Position numbers and translations under genes: made by a program | Source: Erythroxylum novogranatense | Lineage: Eukaryota; Streptophyta; Magnoliopsida; Malpighiales; Erythroxylaceae | Direction of reading: 5' to 3' | Assembly: GCA_029891385.1 (NCBI GenBank) | Contig: CM057231.1 | Span: 18,810,300 to 18,874,299, forward strand | DNA: 64,000 nucleotides | The notes under the pieces: model-generated | The model's input: the letters and a program-made list of their open reading frames with translations, nothing else | The model's database searches: none | What the model was told of the DNA's origin: nothing | Shown here: in pieces, positions 1 through 53,553 of the stretch | Layout of the letters: every line of letters starts with the position of its first letter | Position numbering within the stretch: the stretch's first letter is position 1

Positions 1-1109
1 CCTAAGTAATTAAGAATTCAACCCATACCTCTTCAATACCTTCACCTAAGCGTTTTAACTAAAATTGGCAGCACCTTTCCTTAATAAATTCCTACTTATC
101 TAACATCATATAGGTAATCAAATACATTCCCATCACACTAATCTATCTATGACAACTCTTACATTAATCAAAACCTTAACCTTATACCCACTAATTCAAG
201 CCATACTTATCATCAATTTAAGGCCTCAATTAAATGCATCAACAACCATGATTCATCAACTACATGATCAAAGCATAATTAAAACTTAACTTAATCACTT
301 ACCAATTCAAGCTTCCACTCTTTCCCACTCTCCAATCACTTCACTTTCTTCCTTCACTTCTAAAGCCCATATATGGCTATCACCTTGGATAGAGACTTAA
401 GCTCATATGCAAGTAAAGAGGGCTCTTAAGGTTGGTGGAAGGTGACTTAAGAGAGAAACAAAAAAGAGAAATCAAAGGAGATGTAAAGGAAGTAGGTTTT
501 CGGTGGAGGAAGAGTATTTAGCATTTAAACCCATTCATTTCTTCTATTCCTTAAGGCATAACCGAGAGGAGCACTCTAGCATAGGACAAGGAGCATTAAA
601 TTAAGAGGACAAGTGGCACTTCTTAAAAAAAACAAAATAGGTATAAAACAAAACTCTTGTATAGGATTTAGAAATCCTACTACAATTTGACCCATTCTAG
701 TTCAATGGCCCTAATTTTAATCCCAAAATAATATACCCAATAATTCAGTACCAATGGATAGCAATTTTCACTACCGAAAATCGACCGGTTCACCAATTGG
801 TGATTTTTTCCGGTTCGAGAATTTTCTCCAAAAAAATCCAGAAAAATTTCTAAAAATCCCTTAAAATAGAAAAAAATTTATGGTGCACTCAGAATAAATT
901 TTCAAATCCATTAACCACGTTAATCCCAATAAAATTGTCTTAGGCACGCAAACCGGGAATATCATGTATGCATGCACAGTAATTTCATGTGCACAAATGT
1001 GAATGTGGACCAATCCTATTATGCAATAACAGTCCTATGCACTCCAAATCTATTCCATCCTATGTCAAATTTACTATTTTACCCTTCTAATTGAGGGTGG
1101 GATGTTACA
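1..1109 (-). repeat. Probable Ty3/gypsy (Tekay/del-like) LTR, minus strand, cut by window edge
   Basis: Read on the minus strand, the stretch begins at 1,109 with TGTAACATCCCACCC, the usual start of long Tekay/del-type plant LTRs. It continues leftwards through a segment around 780-850 with an inverted CGAACCGG / CCGGTTCG pair, then a purine/pyrimidine-rich leader (300-560) resembling the transcribed part of such LTRs. No open frame is present. The other end lies outside the window, so a solo LTR cannot be told from the edge of a full element. The lineage assignment rests on style of sequence, not on a coding domain. Confidence 0.4.
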
Positions 1110-3729
1110 AACAATGTACCATATGCTAAATCACAATTAATACATAAGCTCCCCTTATTTCAATACCAATTCAAAACATATTCAAAATCCATTTCTATGC
1201 CAATTCAAAACATGTGCATATCTCATTAGTTTCCATGTGTATCCAAAACTCAATTCAATGCTAAATCAAAACATATGTAAACCTCACAAAGATTAACTTT
1301 TAAATTCAAGTAGTAGCACTAATGAAATTATTCATAAACATATTTTTCATAGTAAGGTAAAAACCATCTTTACAAAATCAATTTAAAGGTACACTCACTG
1401 TTTATCATTTATTGTTAACCACCGTCCTATGTTCGGTACTTTTCTTTTACTAGTCCCAAGTCCACGATGACAAGAAAACTTTATGGTCTTACTCAGCTGT
1501 GAGGGAGACCCTTGAAGGGTTCCTAAAACTCGCTAAGTACATCCATAACTTACCACCTTATTTTACAAATTTTAAAACAAAGGGCTTACCCAAAATCTTA
1601 GCATTTAGTAAGATTAAAATTTTGTTTTCTTTTCATTCAACCATTGAATAACTTGCATGATTTATACATGCTGCTTCTTTCCATTTAAATAACGTACATA
1701 GTATAAACCTACTATTTTCCTTACATTGAACCATTGAACTATGTACAACATACATGCTTCCATTGAACAACCATTAATCCATATATATAGCATCTACATG
1801 CTGCTAATTAATACCCATTGAATAGCATTCATATGACATGGATATACATGCTGTTTTCCTTTCTATTTACGATGTTGTTTTTCTCTTCATTTAACCATGC
1901 CTCCACTTGTTCCTTAATTTTCACATATCAAACGTTCAAATTAGGTTCTAAAGACTTCTAGACATTTGTTTCTCCTATGTCTCTAGTTTACATATCATTA
2001 AAAATCATGCCATTTCATCTTCTAAATTATGAAACACGAACCAAATATCACAAGTTGCTTCAACATAGGGACAATATCAGGTTACCATAATTAATCTCAA
2101 TTTTCAATACCATTCAGTTAGAATTAGGTCTAGGTCTCTTCTAGATATATTTAGTACTATTCTTAGGTTTCATTTACAATTGGAATCACCCAATTTGGAG
2201 TTTTGTAGACTAAGTTATAGTCAAAATACTAGGACTATTCAAGGAAACCAAGAATCCTATTACAGAATTTCACTAAACATAGTTAGGAAAACTTACCACT
2301 TTCTTGAAATCATGCTCAAACATTCACACAATTCATAAGGAAATTTATGTTTCCAGCTTAAGCATTCACCTGCTAGCTAAAAAGGATGGACAAGAGTGGT
2401 TTAACATACCTAAAATCATATGGTAATGTGCTACCTATCTTTTCCCTGCATGTAGTTAGCGTTGATGGAGGTGTTGTCTATGGTTGGAGGCTTAAACAAC
2501 ATGCTAATTTATTTCCCAAAGGTAGTAACTTGGAAACCTATGCATGAGGGGAGTAGCTGCAATTATTCTTCAACAATTCTGGTCCAAAGGAGAGCTAAAG
2601 TTTCGGTGGAATGAAGGTGGAGTAGCTCCCATCATCTTTGTTTTACGTGCTACACGTTGAAGAGGGTTGTCCACACATTGCAATCTTAACTTCCAACAGT
2701 TTTCCATTGTTTTATCCCTCACCATCTTTGTTTAATTAAGCCATTAATACCTTGTAACATCCACGACAATACTTGTCTTCCGCATATAACAAGTTGTTCT
2801 AATTTTGTCTCACCAAAATGACACATGTCCACACCATAAATTGGTCTCTCGTGTAAAGAATTTTATGTCCTTCACATCTACTCCTTCATAAATGTGACAA
2901 AATAAGATTTTCATGCATTCTTGTTCCAAAATAATGAGAACTTCTTCATGTATGTGACAACTGCCACTTAAGTTTCATTCACATGTACACGTATTATTTC
3001 TTATCCAAAATAATCAAATGGCTTAAGAAAAATTTGTCCAGTTTCAATAGAAATTTCATGTCCACTTAATAACATGTTACAGCTAAATATATCAACATAT
3101 AAGTTAGATCGATTTACTTTAAGTATCCATAACTATGACTGATTCTTATTCCTAATGTTTTTGCCTAAGACTGCTTCAAATTTGCTCCATAATAATTTAA
3201 ATCAGGGTCAATCTTAATCTATCATAAATCAATCTGATTGAATTTATTTTTGGTCCATTTCCATACCAATCAAGTCAAATATTTTTTGAATATCATTTGA
3301 CTTTAATACTTGTCTTTCAAGGTTGGTTCTCAATTCACCTTTTAATGAAAATAAAATTTACATTCACCCGAAACCATCATTCACATGAAATGAAATTTTA
3401 TAGACATGTGAAAAAGAAAAGTTTGGGGTTTTACAACTCGTTCTCGTGAAAAGATAAGGTAAATGATTGGCTGTATTATCTTCCCTCTAGATCACTGACC
3501 ACATGGAATGAAATGAAAAGGTTATTCTTGGAGAATTTTTTTTCTTACATCATGAGCTACTAATATCATAATTCAGAAATGAGAGATATGGAATTAAACA
3601 AGTTACTAGAGAAATATTGTACAAAAATTATAGAAGTTTAAGGAAATATATGCTAGTCACCTATACCACCAAATTCTTGAGCAACTTTTATAAAGGTTTA
3701 CTACCAATAGATAGGAGTATGGTAGATGC
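1110..3729. other. AT-rich non-coding DNA with further LTR-like sequence
   Basis: There is no convincing gene. A second LTR-like start, TGTAAAACCCC on the minus strand, lies at about 3,435. The stretch around 1,380-1,620 resembles the interior of long del-type LTRs. The short plus-strand open frame at 3,617-3,802 runs into the MITE that follows and has no coding character. Confidence 0.3.
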
Positions 3730-4057
3730 TAAGGATGGCAGTGGCTCGACCTGGCCCGTTCAAGCTGAGATACCCGAGTTTGAGCCCAATCGGGCCTCAT
3801 AGTTGGCCTGGCTTGACTCAACCTGAATTTTTTTAATTTTTAAATTAAGATAAAATATGACATTGTTTTACTCAAAATGATGTCATTTTGCTTATACATT
3901 TTGGACTTCAAGCTAGGTCATGCCTGAGCAGCCTAAGTTTGAGTTTTATCCTGATCCTGAGCCTAACTCAAGGCTCAATTTTTTTGAAAGAAAAGCTCAA
4001 ATCTCGATCCAAGGCCTGATTAACTCAAGTCAAACCTAGGCCAAACTGTCAAGCCTA
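3730..4057. mobile_element. Non-autonomous hAT-type MITE, about 328 bp
   Basis: The ends are imperfect inverted repeats: TAAGGATGGCAGT on the left and TAGGCTTGACAGT when the right end is reverse-complemented (9 of 13 match). They are flanked by GTAGATGC (3,722-3,729) and GTAAATGC (4,058-4,065), an 8-bp target duplication with one mismatch, the length expected for hAT insertions. The interior is made of degenerate cggg/gcccga and caagcc motifs around an AT-rich core and codes for nothing. Confidence 0.5.
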
Positions 4058-4379
4058 GTAAATGCAACTAGTAGAGGTGTTTTGGTAAATAAATATTGCT
4101 AATTTTTAAATTTTCAAATTTAATTGCTCTAATTTGTTAACTAATTATCGATTAATTGGAATTAGCACAATTGTGTTAAATATGTTCACTCTCTAGGCAT
4201 CCTATAGATATGTGCCTTATTCAAATCATTATAATCCAAGAGAAAAAGATTACTCGAATTTTAGCTATAGAAATTAATGGGGCAATAAATATACCAACCT
4301 CAAAATTTCAATAGATAGCTCCAAACGCTATCACTTGCTCAATCTTAACCCTTAAATTCATATATGTATTTGGATGAAA

Positions 4380-6445
4380 TTGTTAAGGATCTTGCTAATG
4401 ATACTTAACAATTTTAATTAGAAATAAGGGCAAGCCTTCAGAGTTTAAGAAATCAAATAACATAATTAGCCATATCTATTCATAAATTAGAAGCATAAGC
4501 ATCAGAAAAATTTCTTCTCAAACGGTAGTGAATCCTAAGGACAATATTAGTGCAATAATGTTGAGAAGTGAGAAGTTATTCAATATGGCTCTTTTTTACC
4601 AATGGAGATAAGCAGACATGAAAAAGGAGAGAAGAAACATGAATTTTTAGCTCAAGATAAAATAAAAGTGAAATCTAAGTTTTCTTTGTCTATACAATGT
4701 AATGCACATATACTTCCTTTCCTTTATAGTTTAACTAAATCAAAATAAGAGGAGTTTGAAAGAGAGATCTTATAGACCTTTAGAAAGGTGGAAATTAATA
4801 TGCCCCTACTAGAAGTCATCAAGCAAATTCCAAAGTATGTGAAGTTCTTGAAAAATCTATGCATAAATAGAAGTAAATTGAAGAATAATTTTGGGTAAGA
4901 ATGTATAAGCTGTCATGAATAGGAAATTACCTTAAAATACAAAAATCTGGGTATAATTACACTTCCTTCTATAATTGATGATAAGGAAATTAATCATGTT
5001 ATACTCGACTTAGGTGCATCTATTAATGTCAAGTAATACTCAATTTACTAAGCTTTAAATTTGAATTCATTTCAAGAAACTAATGTAATTATTTAGCTAG
5101 CTGACAATTCTTATTTGGATCTTATTGGAGTTGTTGAGGATGTTTTTATTAAGATTAATGGTTTTGTATTTCTAGTAAAATTGATGAAGATAACGTAGAA
5201 CATTTAACTTTAATTTTATTAGGAAGTTCATTCATAAAGGCAGTTAAAACAGAAAGTGATATATATGAGGGTGCTTTTTCTATTGAGTTTGATAGAGCGA
5301 TGGCAAATTTAATATTTTTAAAATAGTGAAATACCCTAACAATTTTCACTCAGTTTATCATGTAGATATTGTTGATTCAATTATGCATGACATTTTTCAA
5401 GAAAAAAGTGTTAGTAATAAGTCAAAGTTTAATGCTAAATTAAAAATGAATGAGTTAGTTGGTGAAACTTGTAAATTTGTAGATCACTACTAGGGATGCT
5501 AACAAATTTGGAATTGAAAGCCCTACCTAATCATCTAAATAATTCTATTTAAGTATGGGAGAGTCACCACCTACTATCATCTAAAAAAGGTTGAATAAAG
5601 AGCAAGAAGAAATGTTGAAGGAGTAGAAAATTGCCATTGGTTAGGCTTTAGCTTATATAAAAGGCACAAGTTCAACAATTTGCATACACAAAATTCTTTT
5701 AAAACAAGACGTTACGCCCATACGGGAACCAAAATGGAGACCCAATCCAATAACGAAAGAGCCAATAATGAAATTTTTTAAAAGCTTTTAGATATATGTA
5801 TAATCTATTTGATTTTTGGATAACGAGCAGGTGAGCCCAGTTCATGCTATGCAAAAGAAAGCTAGGGCAATAGTGATAAGAAATCAAAATGATGAGTTAG
5901 CTCCACTAAGGGTACAAAATGGGTGGCAAATATATATAGATTTTAGGAAGTTTAGCTTGGCTAATTGAAAGGATCACTTCCTATTACCCTTTGTAAATAA
6001 AAAATTAGAAAGAATTACTAGTAAATCATGTTTTTTTTAACCTTTTAGATAGTTTTTTAGGGTACCGCTGGATAGCAATTGCTTAAGAAGATCAAAAAAT
6101 AACTACCTTTACATGTCAATTTGGAATATACACCTTTAGGTGTGGTTTTTGTAATGCTCCAAGTACATGTCGAAGGTGTATGATAGGTATTTTTTAATAT
6201 ATTGAGAATTGTATTAAAGTATTTATGAATTATTTTAGAGTTTAAGGATATTTATTTGATGATTGCTAAAATTATTTATCTAAAGTTCTCAAAAGATGCA
6301 TTAAAACAAATTTGGTGTTAAACTATGAAAATTTTCAATTATTTTTCATCAAGGCATTATTTTGGGATATGTGATTTTATCTAAGGGCATAGAAGTTCAT
6401 AAAGTAAAAGTTGATTTAATTGGGAACTTACATTACCCTACAAAT
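4380..6445 (+). pseudogene. Decayed Athila-like Ty3/gypsy gag-protease-RT, 5' part
   Basis: These are fragments of one polyprotein in all three forward frames, with stops every few tens of codons. A gag motif VNPKDNISAIMLRS is at about 4,525-4,575. The gag end (INMPLLEVIKQIP) is near 4,795. The protease motif LDLGASIN is near 5,005-5,030, followed by LADNSYLDLIGVVEDV (about 5,097) and the FHSVYHVDIVDS-type linker (about 5,345). RT begins with VQNGWQIYIDFRK (about 5,915-5,955) and reaches GYVILSKGIEVHKVKVDLIGN (about 6,365-6,428). At 6,446 the frame is cut by the CACTA element and resumes at 20,849. No matching 5' LTR was found to the left. The Athila assignment follows from the domain style and the downstream extra ORF and is an inference. 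Confidence 0.75.
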
Positions 6446-6835
6446 CACTACAAGAAATTACTTGTTTACCGATGGAAGATTCTGTCAGTAAATTGGAAAT
6501 TTCCGTCGGTAATATTAATTACCGACGAAATTTGGTGGCCGAAAAATCCGTCGCGAAATGGGCCGTAGTTAAAATTACTGACGGTCATTTTCTGCCGGCA
6601 TTTTACCAACGGTCTAAGATGTATTACCGATGGTAATACATCGTCGGAAAGAATTTAACGACAGAACATATTATGTTAATTTTTATCGATAAAATTTAGC
6701 AAATGATAGATTTCTGTCGATAAACTGAAGGCAATAACCTAAAAAGTCAACTAATTTACCGACGGTGACGTTTACCGTCGATAAATCACAACAAAAGTTT
6801 CGACGGAATACTTGTCTGTCGGTAATATCTAGTTA
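6446..6835. repeat. CACTA left terminus and subterminal repeats
   Basis: The terminal CACTACAAGAAA is followed by an array of short direct and inverted motifs: TTACCGATGG, CCGTCGGTAA, TTACCGACG, TTACCGACGG and TGTCGGTAA variants, about ten within 400 bp. In characterised CACTA elements such arrays are bound by the TNPA-type protein. That role here is inferred from the family. Confidence 0.8.
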
Positions 6836-7124
6836 CAGTTTTTTTGTTAATTTCCAATGTTATGTTGTTGTTATAAATGCATAATGTTAAAAGTTACCAA
6901 TTATTTGTTCATAAGAAATTAATTTGTATATATAATTTGATTAAAGAGAAAATTAATTAATAATATAACGTATAAAGTATTTTAATTAATAATAAAAACA
7001 TTACAATGAATAAATCTTATGTTTTTAATTGAAAACAAATGACAAGGATAAACTAATGTCGTGGTGATCGTGGGTGTTCTGAACCGTTAAGCCTCCCCTT
7101 TAACTATTCCATCTCCTGTCTAAG

Positions 7125-8830
7125 CTAAGCTATTTGCTCCATTTGCTCTCTCATCTTAGTCATCTGCTCCATCTCCGCTCTCATCTTAGAAAACTGCTCC
7201 ATCTTCTCTCTCATCTTAGCTGTTTGCTCCATTGCCTCTTTGATCTTTGATACCTGCTCTATCTCCTCTCTCGTCTCCTCTCTCATCTTCAAGCTCATCT
7301 CCTCTCTCATCTTAGCTATCTGCTCCATGTGTTCCATCCGTTGATTAATGTTAGCCTCTATCAAATACCCTATCTGCTCCCTCAATGTGTCCACTGTGGC
7401 TCGAAGTTTAAAGACTTCATTGCTTTGCGTTGGCCTAGCAGATGTTGTTGTACTGGACAGGAAAGAGCGCAAATAACATGTGTTCGCATATGAACCTAGG
7501 CTGAATATTCTTCCACGACGGTCCCTACCACCTATAACATCAAGATATGTCTGAGTCTCGTCTACAGGTTGTTCCTCCTGAGACTATCATTGAATATTTT
7601 GTTGTATTTGGTCCTATTAGGAAGCAATGTTTACATTAGTAATTAAGGTATTATTGTTAAGAAATTATAAAAATGTATTAATTTCACTTACATTCAGCCC
7701 TCTACATCGGGTGTGGGTGTGCAAAAATAGTTGGATAGGTGTAGGCTTGGTGCCCAATGACTTTTCCTACATGTATAACCTAAATTGTCAGATGTGAACT
7801 AGAATTTATAAAAATTTGATGTGAACTAGAATTTATAAAAATTTCGGTAGAGTTTTCTCTATATGTCTGATATTTGCCCCCTGTTCAACAAAGAAAATAA
7901 CTTGACACAGCCATATATGGCACCAGACATTTATATCATAATCAGTATGTACAATAAAGCGAAGCAAAATGTATAAAAAATAGGTGTGAATTTTAGATAC
8001 TTACTAGTCTATGTGCATGCTCGTAGTACGTAATTGATCCTCCCGTATGTGCTGGAAGACTCTCACCCCTTGACCCTCCACGTTTGTTGGTCGAGTTATG
8101 CTCTGGGATAGACATTACTGCAGGTGATGTCCAATACTCGTTCCAACGACTCCAAATTTCCTCTGAAATATAACGCGGCCGTGCACCAGACTTCAAAAAT
8201 CCCAGTAAATTTCTTTCTGAAATAAAAAGGAAAAATATTATATAATGTTAAAATATTTATGTAAATTGTCTATATAAATCAATATAACAAGAAAATAACT
8301 ATTATTTGTACCTCAAACTCCTGAAAGTACAATTGCTTTGTGTCGTCAGATAAATTCTTCCACACATAACCCTCAGGTTCAATTCTTTGCTTAAATGAGG
8401 ACGTCATATTTCTGGAAGTCGGTCCAGACGAAACCAACCTAACATAACAAATTATGTTATACTATGTAAAAATTGATAAAACTAAGACTTAATAATAAGC
8501 AAATTATGAGTGATGTTATTTCACTTATTATTCATTAACAATTGTTATAAACTTTCTTCCATCAGATCCCTCAACTCCAGGCTGGCGAACGTCTCCTCTA
8601 TCCGATAAGCAGGTATTGGATGATATATGTGTTGGGGAAGGGGATGGTGTAGGATGAGGAGCAGTAGGTGATGCCTCATCTGCAACAGTCGGTGCTGGAG
8701 GTGGAGGAGGTTAGTCAGTTGGAGCTACAGATTGTGACGAACCACCTTCACAATAAGTTGCCCTGAACATGGCTCTAAACCTCGGTCACATAACCTCACG
8801 TTGTCTCTTTGGTCCCATGTGTTTACCTTA
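7125..8830 (-). pseudogene. TNPA-like second CACTA gene (Ptta/En/Spm plant transposase family)
   Basis: Blocks in order on the minus strand: a proline/serine-rich start beginning MGPKRQREVM (about 8,830-8,540, with a stop early and another at the proline run); a block with EPEGYVWKNLSDDTKQLYFQEF (about 8,400-8,310); FISEE-type block YISEEIWSRWNEYW followed by HTGGSITYYEHAHRL (8,196-7,993); a block with YLDVIGGRDRRGRIFSLGS (about 7,560-7,490); and a C-terminal coiled coil of repeated MEQ-K-MREEM-type units (7,400-7,125). This order matches the plant Ptta/En/Spm family (PF03004-like), whose members bind subterminal repeats. Intervening AT-rich stretches look like introns. Stops suggest it is not functional. 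Confidence 0.72.
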
Positions 8831-9071
8831 AATTCAATTTTTCCCAATTCTCTACAAGTATAATTAATACTTTGAAATCAATATTTTACACAATATATGG
8901 AGAAGAAAATAAGGTAATGGAGTTGAAGGTTAACAAATTGTCATCAACAATAATTGAACCTTAACAATAATACAAATATGCATGTTTAACAAAGTCTTAC
9001 AGATACAATAATAAATCAACTTGAAAACTTAGTGTAATAATGTATTGCATTGAAAAATCACATTGATATAA

Positions 9072-9816
9072 TTAATTTGTTTGATTCCATGTGACATGGG
9101 AATCGGTAAAGGTAAATGAGTCTCTAATGTCTGGGTCCCCAAGAAGGGTCCTCGCATGTTCAAACGCACCAATAGAAACAGTTAAACTTCTTCCACCTGG
9201 TGTAGGCCTTTCAAAACCTTCTTGCAATAGCTTTGCAGCTATAACTATACTTGTTGAAGAAATAGTGAATGAGTTGCCGCTCTTAGTATGGAAGACTAAT
9301 TCTCCGGATGAACTACTAATAGGAACATTTTTACCTAAAACATAATCAGTGAAGAAGTTTTGAAACCGTGATATTAGAAAAATGTTTAACCAACGAAAAC
9401 GATATATTAATGCATACGTGATTGCGTAGACGAGGTTTGAGGAATAGAAGAATTTTTGACAATACCCGATCTCCCTATTCCTTTATAGGCCGTTGTGACA
9501 TTACTCTCACCTTTATCAGCATATATGTCCTCTTCGAGTTTAAAAGAAGCTTAAACATGTAGGATAGACAATGAAATGAGAATATGTATAATAACTTCAA
9601 TAAAGGAAATGAGATGTACATAACAAGGAAAGAGACGACGTGCCGATCATACTAAACACCTTCAAGTAATAGATCGGCCATGGAAGGCAAACGATTGCTA
9701 GTGTATGATGTAGCAATATGTTCTGTAGTTTTGATTCCTTAGGCTGGGACAATTTTTCCACATTCCTCCCAACGGAAAGAATTTCTACTATCCAGAACCA
9801 ATTGCCATGTCGACAT
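9072..9816 (-). pseudogene. BRCA2: Captured BRCA2 fragment (N-terminus plus BRC-like repeats) inside CACTA
   Basis: Three blocks fit a spliced gene. Block 1 (9,816-9,660) begins MSTWQLVLDSRNSFRWE and ends SMADLLLE at a GGTGTTTAGT donor. Block 2 (9,549-9,418) has GIGRSGIVKNSSI and ends at a CGTATGC donor. Block 3 (9,334 to stop at 9,074-9,072) follows TTTTAG and has FHTKSGNSFTISSTSIVIAA and GGRSLTVSIGAFEHARTLLG. Block lengths keep the frame across both junctions. Plant BRCA2 starts MSTWQ...FRWE...PSMADLLL and then carries BRC repeats (FxTxSGxxxxIS...AxxLL) that bind RAD51 and DMC1 in homologous recombination. Homology is my reading from memory of the family. An in-frame TAA at 9,739-9,741 breaks block 1, and two BRC units are fused closer than in the parent, so internal deletion is likely. 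The Mg/DSS1-binding C-terminus is absent. Confidence 0.72.
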
Positions 9817-9910
9817 TCCTTTAAGAAAAAATTTAATAAAAGACCTTACATTATATATTGAAATGTAAATAATGTTTTTTTTAATTAAAATATTCAATTA
9901 CAAACACAAG

Positions 9911-12900
9911 TTATTCGCTATCAAAACTTAATGGTAAATTACAATCATCTTCTTCTTCGAAAAAATAAGAATCAAATTTTGACTCCTCTTCAGATCCCTA
10001 ACCCTCATCATCCTCCCTAAAGGAAATATCGACATATTCGTTTGATGGATCGTTCAAAGGTTCATTATCGTCATACGTGACAGATGCATTGATAAAAGTG
10101 ACATCTTCCTGAAACGCCTCACTTTCAAGACTATACTCTCCTCTTCCATGTGATTCATAAACACCTCTAGGTTTTACTTTGCAAACCGCTAACCAATCTG
10201 TCTTGTCTCATCGTAAGCTTGGAAAAGGGATATAACAAACCTGTTTCGCTTGCATAGCCAAGACGAAAGGTTCAAATTGTCTCAATCCTCTTCAGTGATT
10301 GATTTTAACTAGATTGTATTAGCTATACACGTTTGTTCCAATATTTGGTGTCAAGTCATACTAATCAAATTTAAATATCACACATCGCTTCACTGACAAA
10401 GCAGGGTATTCAACTTCTAGTATTTCAATAATTTTTTCATAGTAATCCATCATTTCTCCCTGTATCGAAACACCACTATTTATTGTTAACATGCTATGTC
10501 CATAAGATTCTGTATGATATTTGTATCCATTAACGAAATACACCGGATACGATTTAACAGTTCATATAGGTCCCTTCGTAAGATCGCAAATGAACTTATT
10601 CTCAATTGGATTTTCTAAGGCCTACAAAATTAAATTTATCATAGCAAAGAGTATAATGTCATGAGAATAGTTAAATATACCGTTGAATTATAATTAAGAA
10701 TACTTGTAAGTGAAAACTTACAAATCTCTTGAACCATCAAGGAAAGTGTTTTCCTAACTTCTCTATTTATATCATCCTGTGTGATGCCCGGCATTATCTC
10801 CTATAACAATGTCTCATATAATCTAAATACATAATGACTATTTTTAGTAATCAACAACACACAATTTTAAATAAAGAAATAATCATGTTCAACTTGCTGA
10901 ACGAAAGGAAGAACCTCTTCACAGTTCAATAAAATGTAACCATGTGCAACCTCAATTTCTTCCTCTATTAACATTCTTCTTGTCTATGTTCATCCAGAAT
11001 ATGAAAAAATGGACAAGTTTTCATCAACATTACTCATTCCTCCCCCACCATCATTACGAGGAACTATTCTGGCTCTTGTGTTAACATGCGACTCAAATTA
11101 ATGCCCACAAAACATATTAGCGTCCTCCACTAAATAAGCATTACATATGGAGCCTTCAACTCTAGCTTTGTTTTTTACATTTTTTTTCAAGTGATGTAAA
11201 TACCTATATTAGACAGAATAGTTATTAGAATTTAGTTGATAAAGCATGTAAAAATGGCTATTGCAATAATAATTGTCGAGTTACCTCTCAAATGAATACA
11301 TCTATCAATATTGAACTGGACTGGCTAGTTTTGCCTCGTGTGCTAGATGCACAGGTAGATGCTCCATACAGTCAAAGAAGCTTGGAGGAAAATGCCTTCT
11401 AACTTGCATAAAATAACGGGAATTTCATGTTCTAGTTTTTCCATATCACCAAAATTTATTTCAACTGATGTTAGGCTTTTGAAAAACAAGCTTAACTCTG
11501 TTATAGCTTCCCATACCTTAGAAGGTAGCAACTCTTGAAATGCAATTGGGATTAGCCTTTGCATAAATACATGACAATCATGACTTTCCATCCTAAATAA
11601 TTTGTACTTCCTGAGATCCACACACCTAGACAAGTTTGAAACATAACCATCAGGAAACTTTAGACTTTTCAACCATTCACATAAAAGCTCCTTTTGTTTC
11701 TTGTCCAAAATGTAACATGCTTTCAGATATTTACCAGTGCGAAGATCTTTACGTAACTCATTTCTTTTACAAAAAAGTTGCAAATCAGCTCTAGATTTTG
11801 CATTGTCTTTTGTCCTCCCCTTAATGTTCATAATGGTATTGAACAAGTTGTCAAAAATGTTTTTCTCAATGTGCATCATATCTGGATTATGATGTATCAA
11901 ATTCGTTTTCCAATATGGAAAATCCCAAAATATGCTTCATTTCTGCCATCCAAACTTTTGACTAATGGTTGAATTAACTTCATCGGCCTCTAATTCTATT
12001 ACTTTCAGCAAGCCTAATTCCTCAATCTCTTGCAAAATCTCTTCACCGGCTTTTATAGGAGGAGGAGGTGTGTTGACCATCCTATTTTTTATGAACTTAT
12101 GCTTATTGCGCCTAAACGGATGATCTGAAGGAAAAAATTTCCTATGATTGTCAAACCAACATATTTTGTCTCTGTTTGGCAGATAAAACATATCAAAATC
12201 ATTGCCACAATAAGGATAATCCAATTTTCCAGCTGTGCTCCATCCAGATAACATGGCAAAAGTTGGAAAGTCACTAATGGTCCACATCAAAGCCGCTCTC
12301 AACACAAAATTCTATTTCAGGGAGACATCATATGTTTGAAAACCATAGTCCCAAAGCTGCTGCAATTCAGATATCAATGACTGTAAGAAAGCATCCATTT
12401 TTTGTTTCGGATTTGTTGGCCCTGAGACAATCACTGTAAAAAAAAAATGCTTTTTTCATACACATCCAAGGTGGAAAATTATAAGGAGTTATTATAATTG
12501 GCCATGAAGAATATTGCTGACCAGATTGATCAAAAGGTTGAAATCCATCCGTCGACAATCCCAACCGAACATTTCGACTGTCAACTACAAAATTAGCATG
12601 GGTGTCATTAAAATGTTTCCATGCCAGTGCATCTGATGGATGACTCATTACTCCATCTTCTTGTTCGTGTTCAGCATGCCATCTCATGTGAGATGCAGTA
12701 ACATTAGAAGAATAAAGTCTCTACAACCTCGGAGTGAGAGGAAAATAATACATCCGCTTCCATGGAACTAATTTATGTTTCGTAGAACTTTTTCTTGACT
12801 TGTACCTAAGTTGACCACAAAATTTGCGTTGTTCTAAGTTCATATCATCTCCCCAATACATCATACATCCCAACTGACAACAATCAATCTTTTTCACAGA

Positions 12901-13584
12901 CAAACCAAGACCCCGAATAAGTTTCTTCATATTGTAAAAACTATCAACCATTGTATGATCAGCAAGCAATGATTCATTATACCACTCCAGAATTTTATCA
13001 AAACTACGATCTGAAATATGCCCTTCACTCTTTATGTTCAAAATTCGAGCAATTGATGACAATTGGGTCATTGTCTCACAATTTGGCCACAATTCTCAAT
13101 CAACTGACTGTAGTAAGTCAAAAAAATGTTTTGTCTGTAGGTTAGGTTCTTCTTCAACATTTTCCCTATTTGGTTCAAATGTATAACCAACCCCATCGTA
13201 AACTATTTTCCTGTACAAGTTTTCAACTCCATCAACATAATTTCTTCTAAATCCAACCTCCCCGTCATACTCATTTAAGTTGACAGACGATTGTGCTTCA
13301 ATTCTCCTTGAGGTGCTAGAAATGAAGGGTTCCCCATGTCGAGTCCACTCAAAATAATTGAGAACGAACCCTTTTCTTAGCAAATGCAAATTAACTTCAT
13401 CAATAGTAAGGAAGCATTTGTGTTTGCACTTTTTACATATACATCTGATCTTTGACCTATCCATATATGCAGGTTGCGAAGATGCATAATGAATAAACAC
13501 ATTAACTCCCTCAACAAATTCAGGATTAATGAAACCATCAGCGGTTAAACGTCTATACATCCAGGATCTATCGCGGATACTCAT
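9911..13584 (-). pseudogene. CACTA TNP2-type transposase, decayed
   Basis: The N-terminal transposase-associated domain starts MSIRDRSWMYRRL at 13,584 and includes the cysteine/histidine cluster CICKKCKH. The core (Transposase_21-like) shows LGLSTDGFQPF, WPIIITPYNFPPWMCMK, ISDFPTFAMLSGWSTAGKL and HHNPDMMHIEKNIFDN. A DUF4218-like part follows (DCMEHLPVHLAHEAKLASPVQY, near 11,380-11,300; then near 11,200-10,700). A DUF4216-like part is at 10,543-10,280 (YKYHTESYG...NSGVSIQGE), with an acidic tail ending at 9,911. Breaks: in-frame stops at 13,093-13,095, 12,718-12,720 and about 11,934; a frameshift at the A-run near 12,440; another near 11,395; and a tandem TGA-TAG where the family usually has Arg-Trp before the last intron. 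It is probably inactive, but still easily readable. Confidence 0.88.
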
Positions 13585-16500
13585 TTATGGAGGATTGTTA
13601 TTTTAAAACAGCGAATCCAAAATTAGTCTGTTATGTTAGCCACATATAACAAAACATATCAGATAAGACGTTTGATTAAACATCAGGTTTTCTCATTCTG
13701 AATCCTAGCTAGGCTCCTACAATATTTAAACTGAATATCCAACATATAAGTTTGTAATCATATATGTCATTAGATAATGATTGATCACAATTTGATATTT
13801 AATGGATATTAAATATCAAACAATTGCCAAATAAGTTTTCATAAAAATATGAATATTATTGTAAAAAACCTATTTTAATCAATTCGTTGAACATATACAA
13901 TTTCATACAAACATATCAAATTATGTCCACATAACAAGTAAAGAAAACCTCATCATTTTAAAGAGCATCCATCAAATTATAGCTTCAATTAATTAAGGTA
14001 ACTGGATCAATTACATAAGTCAACCTCGTCATGTATAAATTAATACATAACCGAAGTTTATACTATAATCAAGTTTCACATCGTGCAAGCCATATCAATA
14101 AAAGATTCAGGAAGTTGTTCTAGGAAGTTCATCCGCAAACACATAAATAAAGAGCAAAAAACTGTAACAAAAACATAAGCACTGACCTCAATCAAAACAC
14201 AGAGAGATGTTCCTGAAGTACGTCACAGTAGAAGATGTTGATAGAGCTATAATGAAAACCAACAACAAAATCATTCATAGCTTAATTAGAAAGCGGGATA
14301 TATGAAAACAGTGGTCATGAAATATTATACTTAATGAATGACATTTATTATACTCAAATAATTCAACCATCAGGTCATATCCTCAATAATTTCCATAATT
14401 ATAAGTCTCCTCCAAAATAAGATCATAAGTTAAAACTAAGGAGCTCATGTTTTAATTTCAAAATCATCATCTACGAGGATCCAATTGAAATTTTGGCAGC
14501 ATTTCTCCTATAATACGGACATCCCCCTTATGAAATAAGGGTCCCCCTGCAATAAAAACACACTTCTATGTCAACCAATAGCTACAATGCAAATTGGGTC
14601 TCCATACTACATGTCTCTTGTCAATGTAATATAAATTTGAATAATTTCCTTCAACAGTATCCCTTTCGTAAAAATTATAAACCACATATAATACCATAAC
14701 CCCAAAACATGACATTACCTTCAATACAATCCCAATTATCAAACTCCTCGGACAATTAATGGTCTAAAATTATCACAATATCATAATCACAGGACAATGA
14801 CATAATGCATAAGTATGAATTCATTTTCTAATGCCAAATTTGAACACATTCATTCTCACTTGAACAAACTAATCATGCCTTATAAACATAAGCATTTGTC
14901 ATAATGCACCAATCAATACATTAAGTAATTACACTTTAAATGTATTAACACAAATTCCTAATTCACGAACAGTCATAACTAACACGTTACTCTTGTTCTT
15001 TAAATCACATTAACATTCAGAAATAAACTTCATTCCTTTAACAACTTATAAGTTCCAAAATTAGATACTTTCTTATCAAATAAAAGCTTTCTTATATTAT
15101 TACTTCAATTAAACATCCAAATCTTATTTGACCTTAAATTAAACTATTCCATATGAACATAGTCCTTTAATTACACTTCAATTCTACGTAATTCATATGC
15201 TTCAATACCTTATAAAATTCATGTTCAAATCCAAATAAAAATCATTCATTATGTAACTCTTAAATCATTATCTTACATACATCTAAATCCAAAGCAAAAT
15301 CTATTAAACAAGTATCATATTCTAAACAAGTATAACAAACAAGTATGCCTAAAATAATTCCCTTAACTTATATATAGCCTATTTATACTCAAGACAACCT
15401 AAAATACTCGTTAGAAATAAAAACTAGTCATTATAATGACAAGTAACAATAACATTGATTGACCATTTCAGTACATTAGTTAACCAGTATAGCCACAAAC
15501 TTATGGTACATATTTTTAAAAGATCTTGATCGACTAATCTATCCAAAACCTTAATATTAGTTACCTAAATCACCACGTTAGTCTCCTAAACTTCCTTAAA
15601 CAAGTTTTTTCAAAACTTCTCAAATTCTTTTAAAGATCAAAACAAGTTTTTTTTTTACGAAAACATGATTCAAAACCAATTCAATAATTCCCTATTTTTT
15701 AAAATATCAAAAGGTTTTCTTTAAAGATCAAAATAAATTTTCTCTTCATCATGAAAGAATTTATGCACTATATCCTTACATCCAAATGATTATGCAATGA
15801 TTAAACTCTTAATTCATTGAAATGACCAAGATAAGGTAACAAGAAAGAACCATTTGGTTAAGTCTAGTAGACAATTTTATATATAACATTACAGATTTTT
15901 TTTCCTAATGATATGTAGAAGAAAAGAGAGTCAATATATGTCAAAGTACTTCAAGAAAAAGTTATTTCTAAACCAGAGGCTACATAGGTTGAAGGTGTAT
16001 GAGGGTTTAAACCTACATATTAATGCTTTTAATTAAATAGTTAGTGATATTCAAACAGGGACTGACAGTCGAGAATAGAAATCTATAAACCTAACACACA
16101 ATGAGGTTTGGATGAACATAATTAGATTACTAATAAAATCACAGAATTCGTAGTGATATGCAGAAAGAACCTACGAGATATCCGATGGAATGTTTCAGTT
16201 GCTTTTTCGTAGGAGGGAGATAGAACGTGTGAGACGTCTATTATTTTGTTCCATTCCGCACCGCTCTCTTATGTCAAACATTGGTTTTGCTTGCGTAACT
16301 TTTTTTTATGTAATTTTATAAATTTTTGTTAGTTTTATTTTATACATTTCCTTAATTTTTTATATTTTGACAAAATCCCAATTCCATCAAAAGAAATGGA
16401 TTAGTGTATTTCAAATGCTTGAAATATCATTTGAAAGCTTTTAAAGAGCAAACCCAACAATAAAGTTGGACAAAAGAACAATTCAACTCTAACATTTAGA

Positions 16501-18253
16501 GTAGAATATAAGTTAAATCACGGAGCATTTAATTTAAACTTTAATACTTTCAAAACATTCACAACAGACATTATGAGAAAGAAAAATTTAACAGAATTTA
16601 CTATCTATCAATTAAATGCTAAGTTTTAATTCATGTGATGTATTTTTAATTTTGTATATAATAGTAGAACACGCATACAATCTGAGCTTTTTATCTAAAA
16701 AATAGAAGTAGGTCGTAGAAGCCAAAACTCATCGTTTAATTCTTCACATCATTATGACTTTCTCTTCTTTCTTCCCCAATTCTTTCTTACTAGAGATATT
16801 CATCATCTTGTTCATGTCAAGATTTTGAACCAAAGAAGCATATTTTCTCTTCATCATTATTAATATAGATTTTGATTATGTATTGGAAATATTGTCACTT
16901 ATTTAACACTAAAAAATATTTGGGAAGAAAATGTCATGTACCTTTTCAAATGCTAGTCTTTACATTGTTCATCACCCATATCAATAAAATAATTAATAAA
17001 ATAACTTTTAAACTAAGTTGTCCATTTTAAAAGTTTAGATATTTTATTGAAAACTTTTAGATTGGACATTAAAATGAAAAAATATAAACATATTTTAAAC
17101 TTTGTAATTTATAATCCCTAATTATAATGCAATATAAAATTCAAAACATTATAATTAAATTAAAGATACCTCTTTAACTGAATTCTTATAAGAATTTTCT
17201 TTGTGTTTTTGAAAAAAGTAATTTTATAAAACCTTTAATGATATTAAACCTTTGTGTTATTCAACTTATATTACTTTAAGGATTGTTAATGTTATACAAC
17301 TTCCATATTTTGCCTCTAAATTTTAATTTTTGTTAACATAGTCATTTCTTATACTTATTATGTTCATGGGTAAAGTATTGCTCAAATGATAAATTGGTTA
17401 TACAAAAATGTTAATAGGGTTACTTTAATCCTCTCCAATTTCCCATTATCTCCGTAATTTTAGATTGGAATATGATTAGTCGATAGTGCAATTTTACTCC
17501 ATGCAAATTACTGACTGTGGATCATATAATTATCTCATAATTTTGTATATATTTATATGGTATATTTTTATGATGTTCATAATTTTTTCTATTAGGTAAT
17601 TTATTCCTAAGAGTAGGTTATGCCACTCTCTTATCATATTGAAAAAAGTGTAAAGTAAGTGTTAAGTAATTTCTAACTTTATTCACCTATAAAGATGTGG
17701 ACTTAGTTAATAATGTATTCTTATTGGAAATAAAATTAACTTTTGAAATTATAAAATATTTTTGAATAAGTAATTAATAGTCAAATCTTAATCAATTCAA
17801 GTAATTTAAGAGTTATTTTTAAAATGTAGGTGTATAACTTAAAATAAATATAATTTTAACCAATTTACATTACTTAAAGAGAGTTATGAAAAAATAGGAA
17901 AAACTGGAAAATATTTTGTTATGCCTATTTTGTTATATTAATGAAATTATTTCCTTCATTAAGTGGCTTTAAGTTGGTTAGTCTATATTTCTTTATTGAT
18001 TCTATTGATAGTTATGCAATGCTTTGTTTTATGCCAGATGGGCAAGAATAAAACATTTATTCCAAGAATACTCTTCATTATTCATTCTGAGTAAGTGTTT
18101 GTAGCATATTAGTATATTATTTTTCTAATAAATTAGTATCATAACTAACTATGATATCAAAAGAACTCTATATCTTTCCATAATCCACAACTCACCAAAT
18201 TCATTTATGAGAATCAAACACTTAGGATGAAGGTCATTCTCGATTCATAAGGC
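13585..18253. other. Long AT-rich flank of the CACTA element
   Basis: This lies upstream of the transposase in its reading direction. It is about 70-75 per cent A+T by eye, with no open frame of coding character on either strand. It may contain the promoter and leader of the transposase near 13,600-14,300, but I see no definite TATA box to choose. The segment at 14,500-14,560 contains a short ccccttatg / cataagggg-like inverted pair. The stretch is far longer than usual for this position in a CACTA element, so it probably holds unrecognised insertions. Confidence 0.4.
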
Positions 18254-18436
18254 TTTTTTTTCTAGGAGATGGCCCCCGTTTTATTAGCTTAAGAAAACAA
18301 GTACATAGAGAGGTAGGGCATATGACCAATACCTCTCCAGAACAAAAGCCTAGGTGACATACACGAGCAAAGCAATCTATTTGATTCTAGTATGAACATA
18401 AGGAAAGGAAAATTGATCCATGCGCACTTGCCCCAG
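18254..18436 (-). mobile_element. 5'-truncated LINE 3' end with 12-bp target duplication
   Basis: The 183-bp insert starts with eight T's on the plus strand, a short poly(A) tail on the minus strand. It is flanked by the identical 12-mer GATTCATAAGGC at 18,242-18,253 and 18,437-18,448. Read on the minus strand it ends ...AATAAAACGGGGGCCATCTCC followed by A's, like the 3' untranslated end of plant L1-type LINEs. Only the 3' end is present, the usual result of incomplete target-primed reverse transcription. Confidence 0.78.
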
Positions 18437-18919
18437 GATTCATAAGGCATATATGATGTAGTAAACTAAGGATGCATAGACCTTCAAATGATGTGATATT
18501 AACTAAATCTAAAAAGAAACCCTTCAAGGGGGAAAGGATGAGATGTCATATTGCATTTACCCTCATCCATCAAAGTTTGGATAAATATCCTAATAGATAG
18601 CCAATGAAGCCACTTCAAAAAGGACATAGGAAACTCTCCAAAATCGAGTGATGATAGTTAATAAGATCAAGAAGATACAAATTCAAACTTTAAGGGTTGA
18701 GTTTGAGACATTCTTAGTGAAGGATATTAATTTTATTTCATATTACTTTACTATTCGTAGGAGTGGTGAACTAATTGAACAGACTTAATAGAATCATCAA
18801 ATGTTCATGTTGTATTCCAAAAAAAAGATTAAAAGATGTCACTCCGTTAGAAACATAGAGTGGAAGAATCCTTTTGCTTCACACTAAAGAATATTCTAAG
18901 TAAGAAAAGTCCAAAATTA

Positions 18920-19770
18920 ATAATCAAAATAAGAGACTGAAGTATTAAAATAAAAGAAGTCATTATATGGACTTATACAAGCATTAAGAGTTTATAATAG
19001 CTGATTTAACAATTATCTTCATAATAATAGTTTTACTAGATGCTTATCCTATTTTGTTTTTAATGATAAAAGAATAAAGATGATATGTTATTTGCTTGTA
19101 TCTATATAAATGATGTTATCTTCATAAGCAATAACATAAAGAAGTTTGAAGAGTAAGAGTTTGAGGGATATAGGATTGGTTCCTTAATACTTGGTAATCA
19201 AGGTGAAATAAATGGATAATTTAGTTTTCATTACTTAAGAAAGTCATATAAAAGAAGGTGCTTAAAAAGTTTAATATGTTTGATAGTAAGCCGATTAACA
19301 CTAAGACTATGAAATAAAGCTATCCAACTTTGATTGAGCAAGAGAGTGTAGATTCGTCTTTGTTCAAAAATGTTAATACAAAATTGAGGCACTTAACTTA
19401 AACAAGAGTAGATATCTTATTTGCAGTTATACTTATTTGTTAATTTATGAAGACACCTTCTAAAGTTCATTTGAAGATAGTAAAAAAAAGGTTTCTCAAA
19501 GGTATTATTGACTATGACATATGTTACTTATCTTTTAAAGACTTTAATTTGACTTTTTGGTAAAATTACTAATAGATTTGTTTCTTTTCTAAAATAATAT
19601 AATTTTTGGTTTTCAAAGAAACAACCTATAATCATACTCCTACATGTGAATTGAATATATTATAATTACTTTTATACTTGTCATGTTATATAGTTGAGAA
19701 TTTCATTAAAAGAGTATCATATAAAAGGAAGATGTTGAAGCTTATATGAGATGATATTATATGCATGAAA
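18920..19770 (+). pseudogene. Fossil Ty1/copia RT-RNase H fragment inside the CACTA element
   Basis: In shifting forward frames I read KKSLYGLIQALR (about 18,950), INDVIFISNNIKKFEE (about 19,105-19,150), a block matching 'LNMFDCKPINTPM' near 19,275, and a block matching 'KKQPIxxLSTCEAEY' near 19,610-19,660. The order and spacing equal a copia RT to RNase H segment. Nearly every ten codons carries a stop or shift. This is much more decayed than the CACTA transposase, and in the opposite orientation to it. Confidence 0.68.
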
Positions 19771-20379
19771 ACTATATAAATCAAGTTAAATTTAGAATTT
19801 AAAATTTCATCCATTAGGTTTAATTACTATTGTCTCATTCTTACTATATAATTAATATTATAAAATCAAGTTAAATTTAGAATTTAAATTATAAATTGCA
19901 CAATAGTTTGATAAGAATCCGTAAATAAATGTGTAGTCATGATCACATGGCAACAATATTGGAGCTTTGGTGTGGTTTATCGTATGTATAATTATTGGGA
20001 TATGCACCAACCTCTATTAAATCATTCATAGCCAAATATTGCAGTTAGAACCTAGGAACTATTGCTATAATCTCTAATCCCATTGGATCATTATTACATC
20101 CTCATAAGCTCTATTCTCTCCTCACACACTGATGCAGAATTACTAGAGCTCGCAATCTCATTCATCAGCCTACTACATCAGTGAAATAAGATGTACCAAG
20201 ATCCAACCTTTAATAAATAAATGAACTTTACTATTAATTGATTTGTTTAAACTAAATGCTAATAAAATTAAACTAATTTATTAGTACCCATTAATTGATT
20301 TGTTTATTTGTAAGAATAAACATTTAGATATAAAATAATTACAAAAAATGACACATAAAAAATGATACATTTTCCACAA
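19771..20379. other. AT-rich spacer within CACTA
   Basis: No gene is visible. A 24-bp sequence (aagttaaatttagaatttaaa core) occurs twice, near 19,781 and 19,866, about 85 bp apart. Confidence 0.4.
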
Positions 20380-20620
20380 CATGTATCGAAGAAAGAGGGG
20401 AGGAGAAGTGGCTTACCTGTTGGAGAATACAACGCCAGAGATGCACGAGGACGACGTCGAGAACCCACTCCAGATGACAACAAACGACGACGACAGGTGG
20501 CCATGGAGGAGTAAGAAACGTAGAGGAAGGAAGATGTGCACAAGTGGGAGCAGTGGGCAGGGAAGAAAGAAAAAGAAGAGGGGAGGGTTTAAATATTTAC
20601 CAAAATGACGTCATTTTGGG
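20380..20620 (-). other. Locally GC-rich leader-like segment near CACTA right end
   Basis: A roughly 230-bp pocket is much richer in G+C than the several kilobases around it. It is open on both strands: 60 to 75 residues on plus, and a minus-strand frame with MATCRRRLLSSGVGSRRRP. It lies just inside the subterminal repeats, upstream of the transposase in its reading direction, where a first exon or 5' leader would sit. I do not recognise the peptide on either strand, so the function is open. Confidence 0.3.
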
Positions 20621-20639
20621 TATCAATAATGGGGCTAGA

Positions 20640-20848
20640 ATCTGACGTTTTTACCGACAACTTTACCGCCTAAAATGTGTGTTGGTAAAATTTCTCCACC
20701 AAAACTCAGTGACGAAATATTTGACTATCGCAAAAGTTATATTCCACAACCAACTTTGCTGACGTCTATACTTATTCGGTTAGTAATTTCAACGGTTATT
20801 AATACCGTCGGTAATTTTCCGTCACAAAACAACAATTTTCTTGTAGTG
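20640..20848. repeat. CACTA right terminus and subterminal repeats
   Basis: Motifs of the same type as on the left recur: TTACCGACAA near 20,651, ACCGTCGGTAATT near 20,805 and several diverged forms. The element ends TTTTCTTGTAGTG at 20,848, directly followed by the AAT duplication. Confidence 0.82.
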
Positions 20849-22312
20849 AATATTATAAAAGTTCAACTTTTTCTTGGACATGTAGGATTTTATCGCAGAT
20901 TTATTAAAGAATTTTCGAAGATTGCTATACTATTGTCAAAGTTCCTATGTTCCATTTTAATTTAGGAAAGAATGTTAAGAAATTTTTGACAAGCTCAAGG
21001 AATTATTATCAAGTGTGCTTATTATTCATTCACTAAATTTGAATATATCATTCAAGATTATATGTAATGCTAGCAATTATACAATGGGAGCTATTTTAGG
21101 CTAAAGGATTGAGAGGTAAAGTCATGTCATCTATTATGCCTCAAAGACATTGGATGCTGCATAGTGCAATTACTTTACAACTAGGAAGAAGTTTTTAGCA
21201 ATTATTTTTGCTGTAGATATATATAGAACTTATCAGTTTACCTCTAAAATTTTTTATAATTTGATCATACAATATTGAAACACCTTTTGGAAAAGGAGTC
21301 CAAACTAAGGTTGATACAATGGATTTTGATACTGTAAGAATTTGATTTCATGATTAGAGATCGAAAAGGAGTAGAAATTTTAGTGGTAAACCATCTGAGT
21401 AGCTTGGAAAGAGATAAAGATAGTTTCCTATTACTAAAATTTTTCCTTACGAGCAATTATTTTAAATGAAAGGTACAATTCCTTTGTATGCAACCATGTT
21501 AAATATTTTGTTATCGAAACTTTTCCTGACTACATTAGTAATTTTAAAAGGATAAGGAATGGGACAAAATATGAATTTTAGGATGAACCATATTTTTGGA
21601 AGTTTTATTCTAATAAAGTTATTAGACATTGTGTACCAGTGAGTGAATATCATTATATCTTAACTTTTTGTCACAATTATGCATATGGAGGACACTTTTG
21701 TTCTAAACATACTACTAGAAAGGTTTTAGATAGTTTTTTATATTGAAAAACTTTGAATAAAGTTGCTTGCTTATTTTGTAAAAGTTATGATAGATTTTAA
21801 AAGACACGTACGTTATCTCACTGAAATAAATGCCTGTATTGGTGTATGAGTCGTTAATTTTATGGGTCATTTTCCTTCATTTTGAGATTTTTTTACATAT
21901 TTGTTGTAGTTGAATATGTTTCAAAGTTAGTATAAGCAAAATCCACCAAGACTGATGATTTTACAATTATTATAGATTTTATAAAGTCTTAAAATTTTCA
22001 ATATAGTCAAAGGTCCACAAGTTACTATTAGTGATCAAGGGAGTCATTTTTGTAACAAAACAGTAGCATCTTTGTTTAAAAAGTATGGAATGCGTCATCA
22101 AGTAGTCACCATATATCATCCAAAAAAATTAGAAGTTTCGAATAGAGAATTGAAATCTATTTTGGAAAAGGTGATGAATATAGTAAGAAAGTATCGGTGC
22201 TTACATATAGACAACATTCTTTAGATTTATGATATAACCTATAAAACGCAAATAAGGAAGTTTCCTTATTGATTAGTTTTTTCGTAAAGCTAGCTAATTA
22301 CCTATGAAGGTG
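20849..22312 (+). pseudogene. Decayed Athila-like gypsy RT-RNase H-integrase, middle part
   Basis: The RT resumes at once with VQLFLGHVGFYRRFIKEFSKI (about 20,870-20,930). RNase H follows, recognisable by LKHLLEKESKLRLIQWILIL and FDFMIRDRKGVEILVVNHLS (about 21,270-21,400). Integrase follows with its zinc-binding part (IRHCVPVSEYHYILTFCHNYAYGGH, about 21,620-21,695), then VVVEYVSKLV (about 21,905), ISDQGSHFCN-like sequence (about 22,030) and KKYGMRHQVVT-like sequence (about 22,080). It breaks near 22,312 within the motif normally reading PVE-EHKAYW and continues after the microsatellite insert. Many stops and shifts are present. Confidence 0.78.
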
Positions 22313-22689
22313 ATTAGAAATGATATGGCTCTTTTAAAACTTACTGAGGACCTAGCTCTCAATAGAAAACTTTAGCATATTGGGATATGGGAAAAGGATC
22401 TCACAAAGAGATGTCTTTCTCTTTCTCATAGGTCTTTTAAACCTTTTTCTTTGAGTCTTATGTCTTATGCTTATCCTAAACATTCAATCTGTAGTACTTT
22501 CCTCTTAGTTATTTAACCTAAACATTTTTTTACAATGACTTGTGTGTTTTATTTATTTATATGTCCTTTTCTTATTTTTATTATTAACTTATTTTATCTT
22601 TTATTTTATTCCTTACTTTTTTCTTTTTTATTATACTATTTATTTTATTAATTTTCTATATTTTATATATACTTGTTTGTTTATTTATT

Positions 22690-23200
<511 letters not shown>

Positions 23201-52430: not shown

Positions 52431-52434
52431 GCCG

Positions 52435-53514: not shown

Positions 53515-53553
53515 GTTAAACTCCTCAAGATTTTGAAAATGGGAGGCACTTGT

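Follow-up and report, generated by a model that had tools for sequence, protein, structure and literature searches.

Cut-and-paste transposons rely on their host for the repair of their breaks, and we know of none that carries a selected gene derived from the host repair machinery. The CACTA transposons include elements that carry pieces of host genes, among them the soybean element named Tgm-Express1. In the available parts of two papers, the Tpn1 family of morning glory and a soybean element are referenced as gene-capturing CACTA transposons, Cactavine-5 of grapevine and Chenopodium elements with Neprosin and AP2 fragments are described, and the capture in Cactavine-5 is reported in two copies and the AP2 piece in three species (PMC2528002, PMC8978399). 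Captured introns are mentioned, in the same partial texts and one other, for other grapevine DNA transposons, MULE, PIF and hAT (PMC2528002, PMC8978399, PMC8903248). Pack-CACTA elements combine CACTA ends with captured coding DNA, but are non-autonomous and, so far as the accessible part of their description goes, have no transposase gene (PMC8903248). A host domain is kept as an extra coding part in the Vandal MULEs (Kaonashi) with Ulp1/KIU and in CACTA-ULP (PMC13317346, PMC2528002), and the excerpted source sets the KIU-carrying Vandals in the context of anti-silencing (PMC13317346). Among host genes, moss PpBRCA2 encodes a 391-aa protein with BRC repeats that is described, in the portion of the paper at hand, as short, without a canonical DNA-binding domain and acting in repair, with FxxA conserved and the gene intronless (PMC12412785).

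The window, the 64,000-nucleotide stretch of DNA that was analysed, harbors a CACTA transposon that carries, between a TNPD gene and a TNPA-like gene, a BRCA2 N-terminus in three exons (segment 9816-9072, minus strand). In this segment the CACTA family probably has a third gene, which descends from the BRCA2 of its host. Like Tpn1, Tgm-Express1, Cactavine-5 and the Chenopodium elements, the family carries a piece of a host gene; whereas their fragments come without evidence of selection in the available texts, 39 of 40 sampled relatives in this family have the gene, and its frame appears to be selected. Kaonashi and CACTA-ULP carry a SUMO-protease domain, while here the captured part is a BRCA2 N-terminus with introns, and PpBRCA2 differs from it in being an intronless host gene described as retaining FxxA. 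Gene capture by CACTA elements is known; what would be new is a third gene that derives from BRCA2, is spliced and selected, and belongs to a large CACTA family, and the accessible parts of the literature on CACTA and BRCA2, and on transduplication under purifying selection, yielded no published selected BRCA2 gene in a CACTA element.

The original prediction had placed three BRCA2 blocks, in one orientation, between the two transposase genes of a CACTA element. The element itself is clear from its CACTA ends, its AAT duplication and its Transposase_21 domain, and its main features are as follows.

6446 to 20848: CACTA transposon of 14,403 bp, with its genes on the minus strand
6443 to 6445: left copy of the target-site duplication, with the sequence AAT
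20849 to 20851: right copy of the target-site duplication, with the sequence AAT
9911 to 13584, minus strand: TNPD transposase gene, with its presumed ATG at 13584 and its stop at 9913-9911
7128 to 8818, minus strand: second gene, seen as open reading frames

The termini, CACTACAAGAAA and TTTCTTGTAGTG, are terminal inverted repeats that start with CACTA, as in the En/Spm superfamily; their 37-nt arms are 78% complementary, and a 3-bp target-site duplication is likewise characteristic of CACTA (En/Spm) elements. The element is flanked by what we take to be an older Ty3/gypsy retroelement. One of the two predicted transposase genes stands: TNPD contains the Pfam domains Transposase_21 (E 3.2e-20) and Transpos_assoc (E 1.2e-19) of a TNPD-type transposase. 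The downstream gene, a single exon of which was scanned with Pfam and gave no curated transposase match, is TNPA-like by its position and its coiled-coil-like repeats only. A coiled-coil-like coding stretch of ~30-bp repeats is found at 7102-7380, at the end of this gene. The TNPD of the window looks broken: of the 13 copies that cover its TGA at 13098-13096, 8 have CGA there and 4 have TGA, and its TAG at 12723-12721 is common to 6 of the 13 copies covered. Even so, the presence of TNPD separates the element from Pack-CACTA. Upstream of TNPD lies ~7 kb of CACTA sequence (13585-20848), with frames of at least 70 codons only near its far end (20307-20962).

The BRCA2 proteins for comparison came from a query with an Arabidopsis BRCA2 sequence, which matches the database at 97% and gave 288 relatives, 120 of them listed. 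In tblastn against the window, 118 of the 120 listed proteins match at E<=0.01, with 217 HSPs that all fall on the minus strand from 9009 to 9816. A profile built from 99 N-termini (21 of the 120 proteins were dropped for a different or non-standard start) finds the blocks in order, exon 1 scoring 49.0 bits and the later pair of BRC-like units 4.1 and 24.2 bits; the middle block by itself scores -0.8 bits and is weak singly, as is the 4.1-bit block. The best of 1316 GT-AG chains (106.4 bits, exon 1 at 9816-9660 and exon 2 from 9549) contains two stops. Eighth in rank, at 99.1 bits with one stop, is the chain that agrees with the host gene, and the chains above it differ in splice choice; this eighth chain takes exon 2 to 9418, uses the donor GTATGC and resumes with exon 3 from 9334, giving the following structure.

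9660 to 9816, minus strand: exon 1, 157 nt, MSTWQ...SMADLLLE, equal in length to exon 1 of host BRCA2
9550 to 9659, minus strand: intron 1, 110 nt, GT-AG, phase 1
9418 to 9549, minus strand: exon 2, 132 nt
9335 to 9417, minus strand: intron 2, 83 nt, with a GTATGC donor as in the host, phase 1
9072 to 9334, minus strand: exon 3, with two BRC-like units, the spacer deleted and the stop at 9074-9072
9739 to 9741, minus strand: premature stop TAA at codon 26, open in the consensus

The spliced reading, padded and with its stop replaced by one residue, was searched against 5.8 billion proteins and gave 31 matches, all 31 of which have BRCA2 domains (best E 1.5e-12); 30 are named plant proteins and one is unnamed, with lengths of 385-1225 residues. 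Together with the tblastn matches, this bears out the three predicted blocks. No transposon protein is found among the matches of the two protein searches made with the segment. A search for relatives of its own size with the short spliced reading left none of 73 candidates at E<=10, a scan of viral contigs with the same reading gave 14 pattern matches and 0 confirmed, and Pfam on the single exon-3 frame found no match at E<=1. The homology of the N-terminus and the intron positions are those of BRCA2; the helical/OB/tower DNA-binding domain is absent, the frame stopping after the third BRC-like unit. The single in-frame stop that had been noted is the TAA at 9741-9739, which also occurs in 9 of the other 39 copies, and the BRCA2-derived frame of the window copy is dead.

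The ATG of this frame (9816) lies 94 nt past the TNPD stop, in the same orientation, and CACTA genes are able to share transcripts via alternative splicing, as in En/Spm. The BRCA2 exons could therefore belong to a transcript fused with that of TNPD or of the downstream gene, with selection acting on the fused protein. This is unlikely, as the captured gene has its own ATG and its own stop, and the position of the stop is kept within ~1 codon by different codons (TAA, TGA, TAA).

A separate third gene remains the preferred reading. The segment is not a one-off capture, and recurs family-wide. In the genome of the window itself (1.30 Gb, 267 contigs), the exon-1 23-mer is found at 602 places with <=2 mismatches, and its reversed control at 0. 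Among the 40 candidates scored, the best of 1339, 39 besides the window are full or near-full copies of the 745-bp segment, at 87-94%. The original prediction had also suggested looking for other CACTA copies with the insert: in 20 copies fetched with flanks, the same CACTA sequence lies downstream in 20/20, and TNPD-side sequence adjoins the segment in 19/20, the exception (L023) ending just beyond the segment; the left end of the element is reached in 9/20. When the 3' end of TNPD is used as the query, so that copies are picked independently of the segment, exon 1 is present at 39 of the 40 best-scoring TNPD 3' ends (of 1314 candidates), window included. Twenty-one of these 40 ends, again including the window, are known copies, and 18 of the remaining 19 carry exon 1. 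Deeper diversity came with a second set of 40 copies, which were chosen for their sequence type among the first 100 of the 602 pattern matches. Because they are best-scoring or picked by type, neither the copy sets nor the TNPD ends are random samples.

Clustering of the 80 copies into groups of at least 4 gives three subfamilies, G0 with 41 copies (the window among them), G1 with 22 and G2 with 8, with 9 copies outside the three clusters. The one G2 copy of the 8 that was fetched with flanks has TNPD on one side and the start of the downstream gene on the other, and aligns to G0 in a single alignment that runs from TNPD into exon 2. The subfamilies therefore diverged as transposons, most simply following one capture. 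The three subfamily consensuses differ by 11.8, 25.5 and 31.8%, and each has an open frame with GT-AG introns, of 183, 183 and 166 codons, with exons of 157/132/263, 157/132/263 and 157/132/212 nt; the consensus of the first 40 copies likewise has 183 codons without a stop. Among these 40 copies, 4 are intact, with the ATG, all four splice dinucleotides and the entire frame (L019, L041, L053, L058); of the 36 not scored intact, 2 are open to their cut 3' ends.

Between subfamilies, the frame appears to have been held by purifying selection inside the transposon. The pN/pS ratio is 0.50 [0.35-0.71] for G0-G2 and 0.49 [0.37-0.66] for G1-G2, and for G0-G1 it is 0.63 [0.40-1.15], where neutrality is not rejected. 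A codon model of the host, G0, G1 and G2, fitted from one starting point, gives an omega of 0.44 on the within-transposon branches (against 1, LRT 20.5, p 6e-6). Third positions are in excess in the comparisons with G2 (57 vs 29 and 28, p 2.6e-5; 70 vs 39 and 37, p 1.6e-5), and are not significantly so for G0-G1 (25 vs 22 and 19, p 0.41); the TNPD of a G2 copy against G0 behaves likewise (0.113/0.090/0.231). Codon-like periodicity was also sought in the introns, where it is not significant (p 0.46, 0.14, 0.10). Exon 2 is under little constraint, with ratios of 0.99 and 0.85.

Within the burst of the window, no such constraint is seen. The 21 close copies show no codon-position bias, and their exons are slightly more variable than their introns. 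Variants shared by at least 3 copies have a replacing ratio of 2.14, against 3.65 for private variants, which is not significant (p 0.078), whereas in TNPD of the same 21 copies shared variants are less replacing (1.57 vs 2.70, p 0.0035). The corresponding test on variants shared by at least 2 copies gave p 0.043 for the segment, and carries no weight because the wrong frame gives a similar value (0.045). The selection signal therefore comes from the consensuses, one of them built from 8 copies, and from the one-start model fit. The result within the burst fits decay after insertion with selection on the active lineage alone, and it also leaves room for a constraint weaker than that on TNPD, or for one lost in the burst of the window.

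These same observations bear on whether the segment is a captured fragment that hitch-hikes as a neutral passenger, with a non-coding role or with open frames that are mere leftovers. The 36 of 40 copies not scored intact would fit such a passenger, as would the lack of codon bias in 21 close copies whose TNPD is constrained, and genes captured by plant transposons are said, in the accessible parts of two papers, mostly to turn into pseudogenes (PMC2528002, PMC13317346). Against this, three consensuses that are up to 32% diverged are all open, and a neutral simulation (no constraint, stops only) leaves all three frames open in just 1 of 3000 runs; the omega of 0.44 and a third-position excess confined to the exons point the same way. 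A neutral passenger is thus improbable, and a coding gene of the transposon is favored instead.

The parent locus, which the original prediction had proposed to find, is present in the same genome at C8:96802965-96797428. Host BRCA2 shares with the transposon gene its N-terminal exons, its block order and its intron positions; exon 1 measures 157 nt in each, intron 1 is 89 nt long in the host and 110 nt in the transposon consensus, and intron 2 is 81 nt against 83 nt. Both introns occupy the same positions and are in phase 1, and the second donor is GTATGCAT in both. The transposon gene differs in having no DNA-binding domain, in the deletion of the spacer, in the loss of FxxA/FxxG and in the presence of FEHA. 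The consensus of the 21 copies has amino-acid identities to the host of 26/52, 12/44 and 39/86 in the three exons, and a dN of 0.49 and dS of 1.13, so that synonymous divergence is near saturation. Against 130 BRCA2 proteins, the N-terminal part of the host protein included, the transposon consensus matches the host best (90.5 vs 73.3 bits), and when host BRCA2 itself is compared with 129 proteins, those of Jatropha, Ricinus, Dovyalis and Hevea come nearest, so that the host probably belongs to the Malpighiales. A tree built from the host, the three subfamily consensuses and 24 of the 129 fetched BRCA2 proteins groups the transposon sequences in a single clade (support 100) beside host BRCA2 (95). 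The stem leading to this clade is long, at 1.14 substitutions per site against 0.22 for the host, a sign of strong relaxation or of altered function after capture; a stem of this length could also distort the placement of the clade.

A second relative in the genome is L121, a dead N-terminal copy of BRCA2 with introns and many stops (C5:26552900 (3301-4130), at C5:26.55 Mb), in the 7.6 kb around which a search for CACTA sequence found none recognisable. By simple shuffles, intron 1 of the three consensuses matches intron 1 of L121 with z of 8.0, 5.1 and 7.7, and that of L121 matches the host intron with z 10.2; directly against the host, intron 1 of the consensuses is weakly matched (z 2.1, 1.9, 3.3). 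A search for homology of intron 2 to the host or the pseudogene gave nothing clear (z 0.4-3.4), so that the evidence for intron capture consists of intron 1, the donor, and the positions and phases of the introns. From the shared intron plan and the homology of intron 1, it follows that genomic DNA was captured and not an mRNA copy, in agreement with what had been proposed from the window. The consensus also matches host exon 3 over 16 of 17 nt (E 0.05), but this match is out of order and was set aside.

L121 is also without a similar exon-3 spacer, and part of its tail is common with the transposon gene; it might be the dead relic of a captured, shortened paralog. That is no more than a suggestion, because the tail homology to the consensuses, in its new part, is moderate (z 3.0, 1.7, 3.8) and because in exon 1 L121 is no nearer to the transposon than the host is. 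Taken further, a functional shortened host paralog might have been captured more than once, with selection acting on the paralog and not on the transposon, and a BRCA2 copy outside recognisable CACTA sequence that shares intron 1 and part of the tail would be in keeping with this. Such a history is very improbable given the full support for a single transposon clade, the one-piece alignment of TNPD and gene between G0 and the G2 copy, which places the split inside the transposon, and the stop-ridden state of L121. The capture was apparently made once, before the split into three subfamilies. Elsewhere in the genome, two near-equal-scoring partial copies of the BRCA2 C-terminus, at C9:110073058-110074030 and C12:3825437-3826409, perhaps represent another duplication or capture, and a further degenerate BRC-like match lies at C10:30883530-30883685.

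The suggestion that the segment could encode a RAD51-binding peptide is, for a canonical peptide, not supported by comparison with the host. The BRC units of host BRCA2 carry FRTG, FHTA and FHTA, where G0 has AYKG, FHTK and PTPG at the same positions, and the three ancestral FxxA/FxxG positions are lost in all three consensuses. The classical RAD51 contact is gone, since these positions are replaced. All three consensuses do contain the strings FEHA (of the FxxA type) and LLQE, neither of which stands at those places in the host. BRC repeats are described, in the portion of the source available, as using FxxA together with a second hydrophobic-hydrophobic-x-E/D motif (PMC12412785), and an altered mode of RAD51 binding by the transposon protein is therefore possible. 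The proposal that the segment acts as RNA, through small RNAs that silence host BRCA2 or camouflage against it, has a precedent in maize elements, for which part of one source notes an siRNA conflict of captured sequences with their donor genes (PMC13317346), but is hardly credible here, as none of the 725 21-mers in the window segment has a match with <=2 mismatches in the first 1100 nt of the host gene (5 have one with <=3), the longest exact match to the host gene is 12 nt, and a constraint at the protein level would be left unexplained. Extending the comparison to 80 copies raises the longest exact match to at most 14 nt, and siRNA action on the parent BRCA2 is unlikely.

In the history that the data support, a genomic stretch of a BRCA2 copy from the host lineage, spanning exon 1, intron 1, exon 2, intron 2 and part of exon 3, moved between TNPD and the downstream gene. 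The captured gene retained an ATG of its own, its two introns and a stop, and purifying selection appears to have acted on its frame as the subfamilies diverged. The family grew to hundreds of copies; of the 40 examined most are now broken, that of the window among them. Active copies would be spliced and translated into a protein of ~165-185 residues that aids the transposon. We infer that this protein is most likely a stripped-down BRCA2 adaptor, the conserved parts of which would touch partners in the host recombination machinery: an N-terminus of the form MSTWRLVPDG.NSFRWEECGKIV...RLPSM.DLLLE and a C-terminal block of the form FTVSIGAFEHAR.LL.NP.IG.SFTFTDSHV.WN. The adaptor would either steer the repair of the double-strand breaks left by excision or compete there with BRCA2. 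More specifically, it is conceivable, though doubtful, that a CACTA-encoded BRCA2 mimic, acting through its conserved N-terminus and the FEHA and LLQE strings, modulates RAD51/DMC1-dependent repair so that excision breaks favor the transposon, and that it has been selected through ~600+ copies.

With a selected frame and a presence in nearly all sampled relatives, the captured repair gene looks to be more than debris, and it hints at a transposon that uses a piece of the host DNA-repair machinery. The idea that DNA transposons manage recombination repair with a BRCA2 piece of their own becomes testable, and a single genome offers hundreds of copies together with host BRCA2, from which both the source of the capture and the selection on it can be read.

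Outside the element, the window contains several other features. A long trinucleotide array (TTA/TTG/TCA) lies at 22539-23149, and long frames at 32912-36697, the longest open over 502 codons, presumably belong to a copia-like retroelement. The exons of a plant gene on the minus strand at 40461-45409 are taken to be those of a heparan-alpha-glucosaminide N-acetyltransferase-like gene. Finally, a GC-richer stretch at 47615-56447 has long frames on both strands, which we assume to be retroelement-like.
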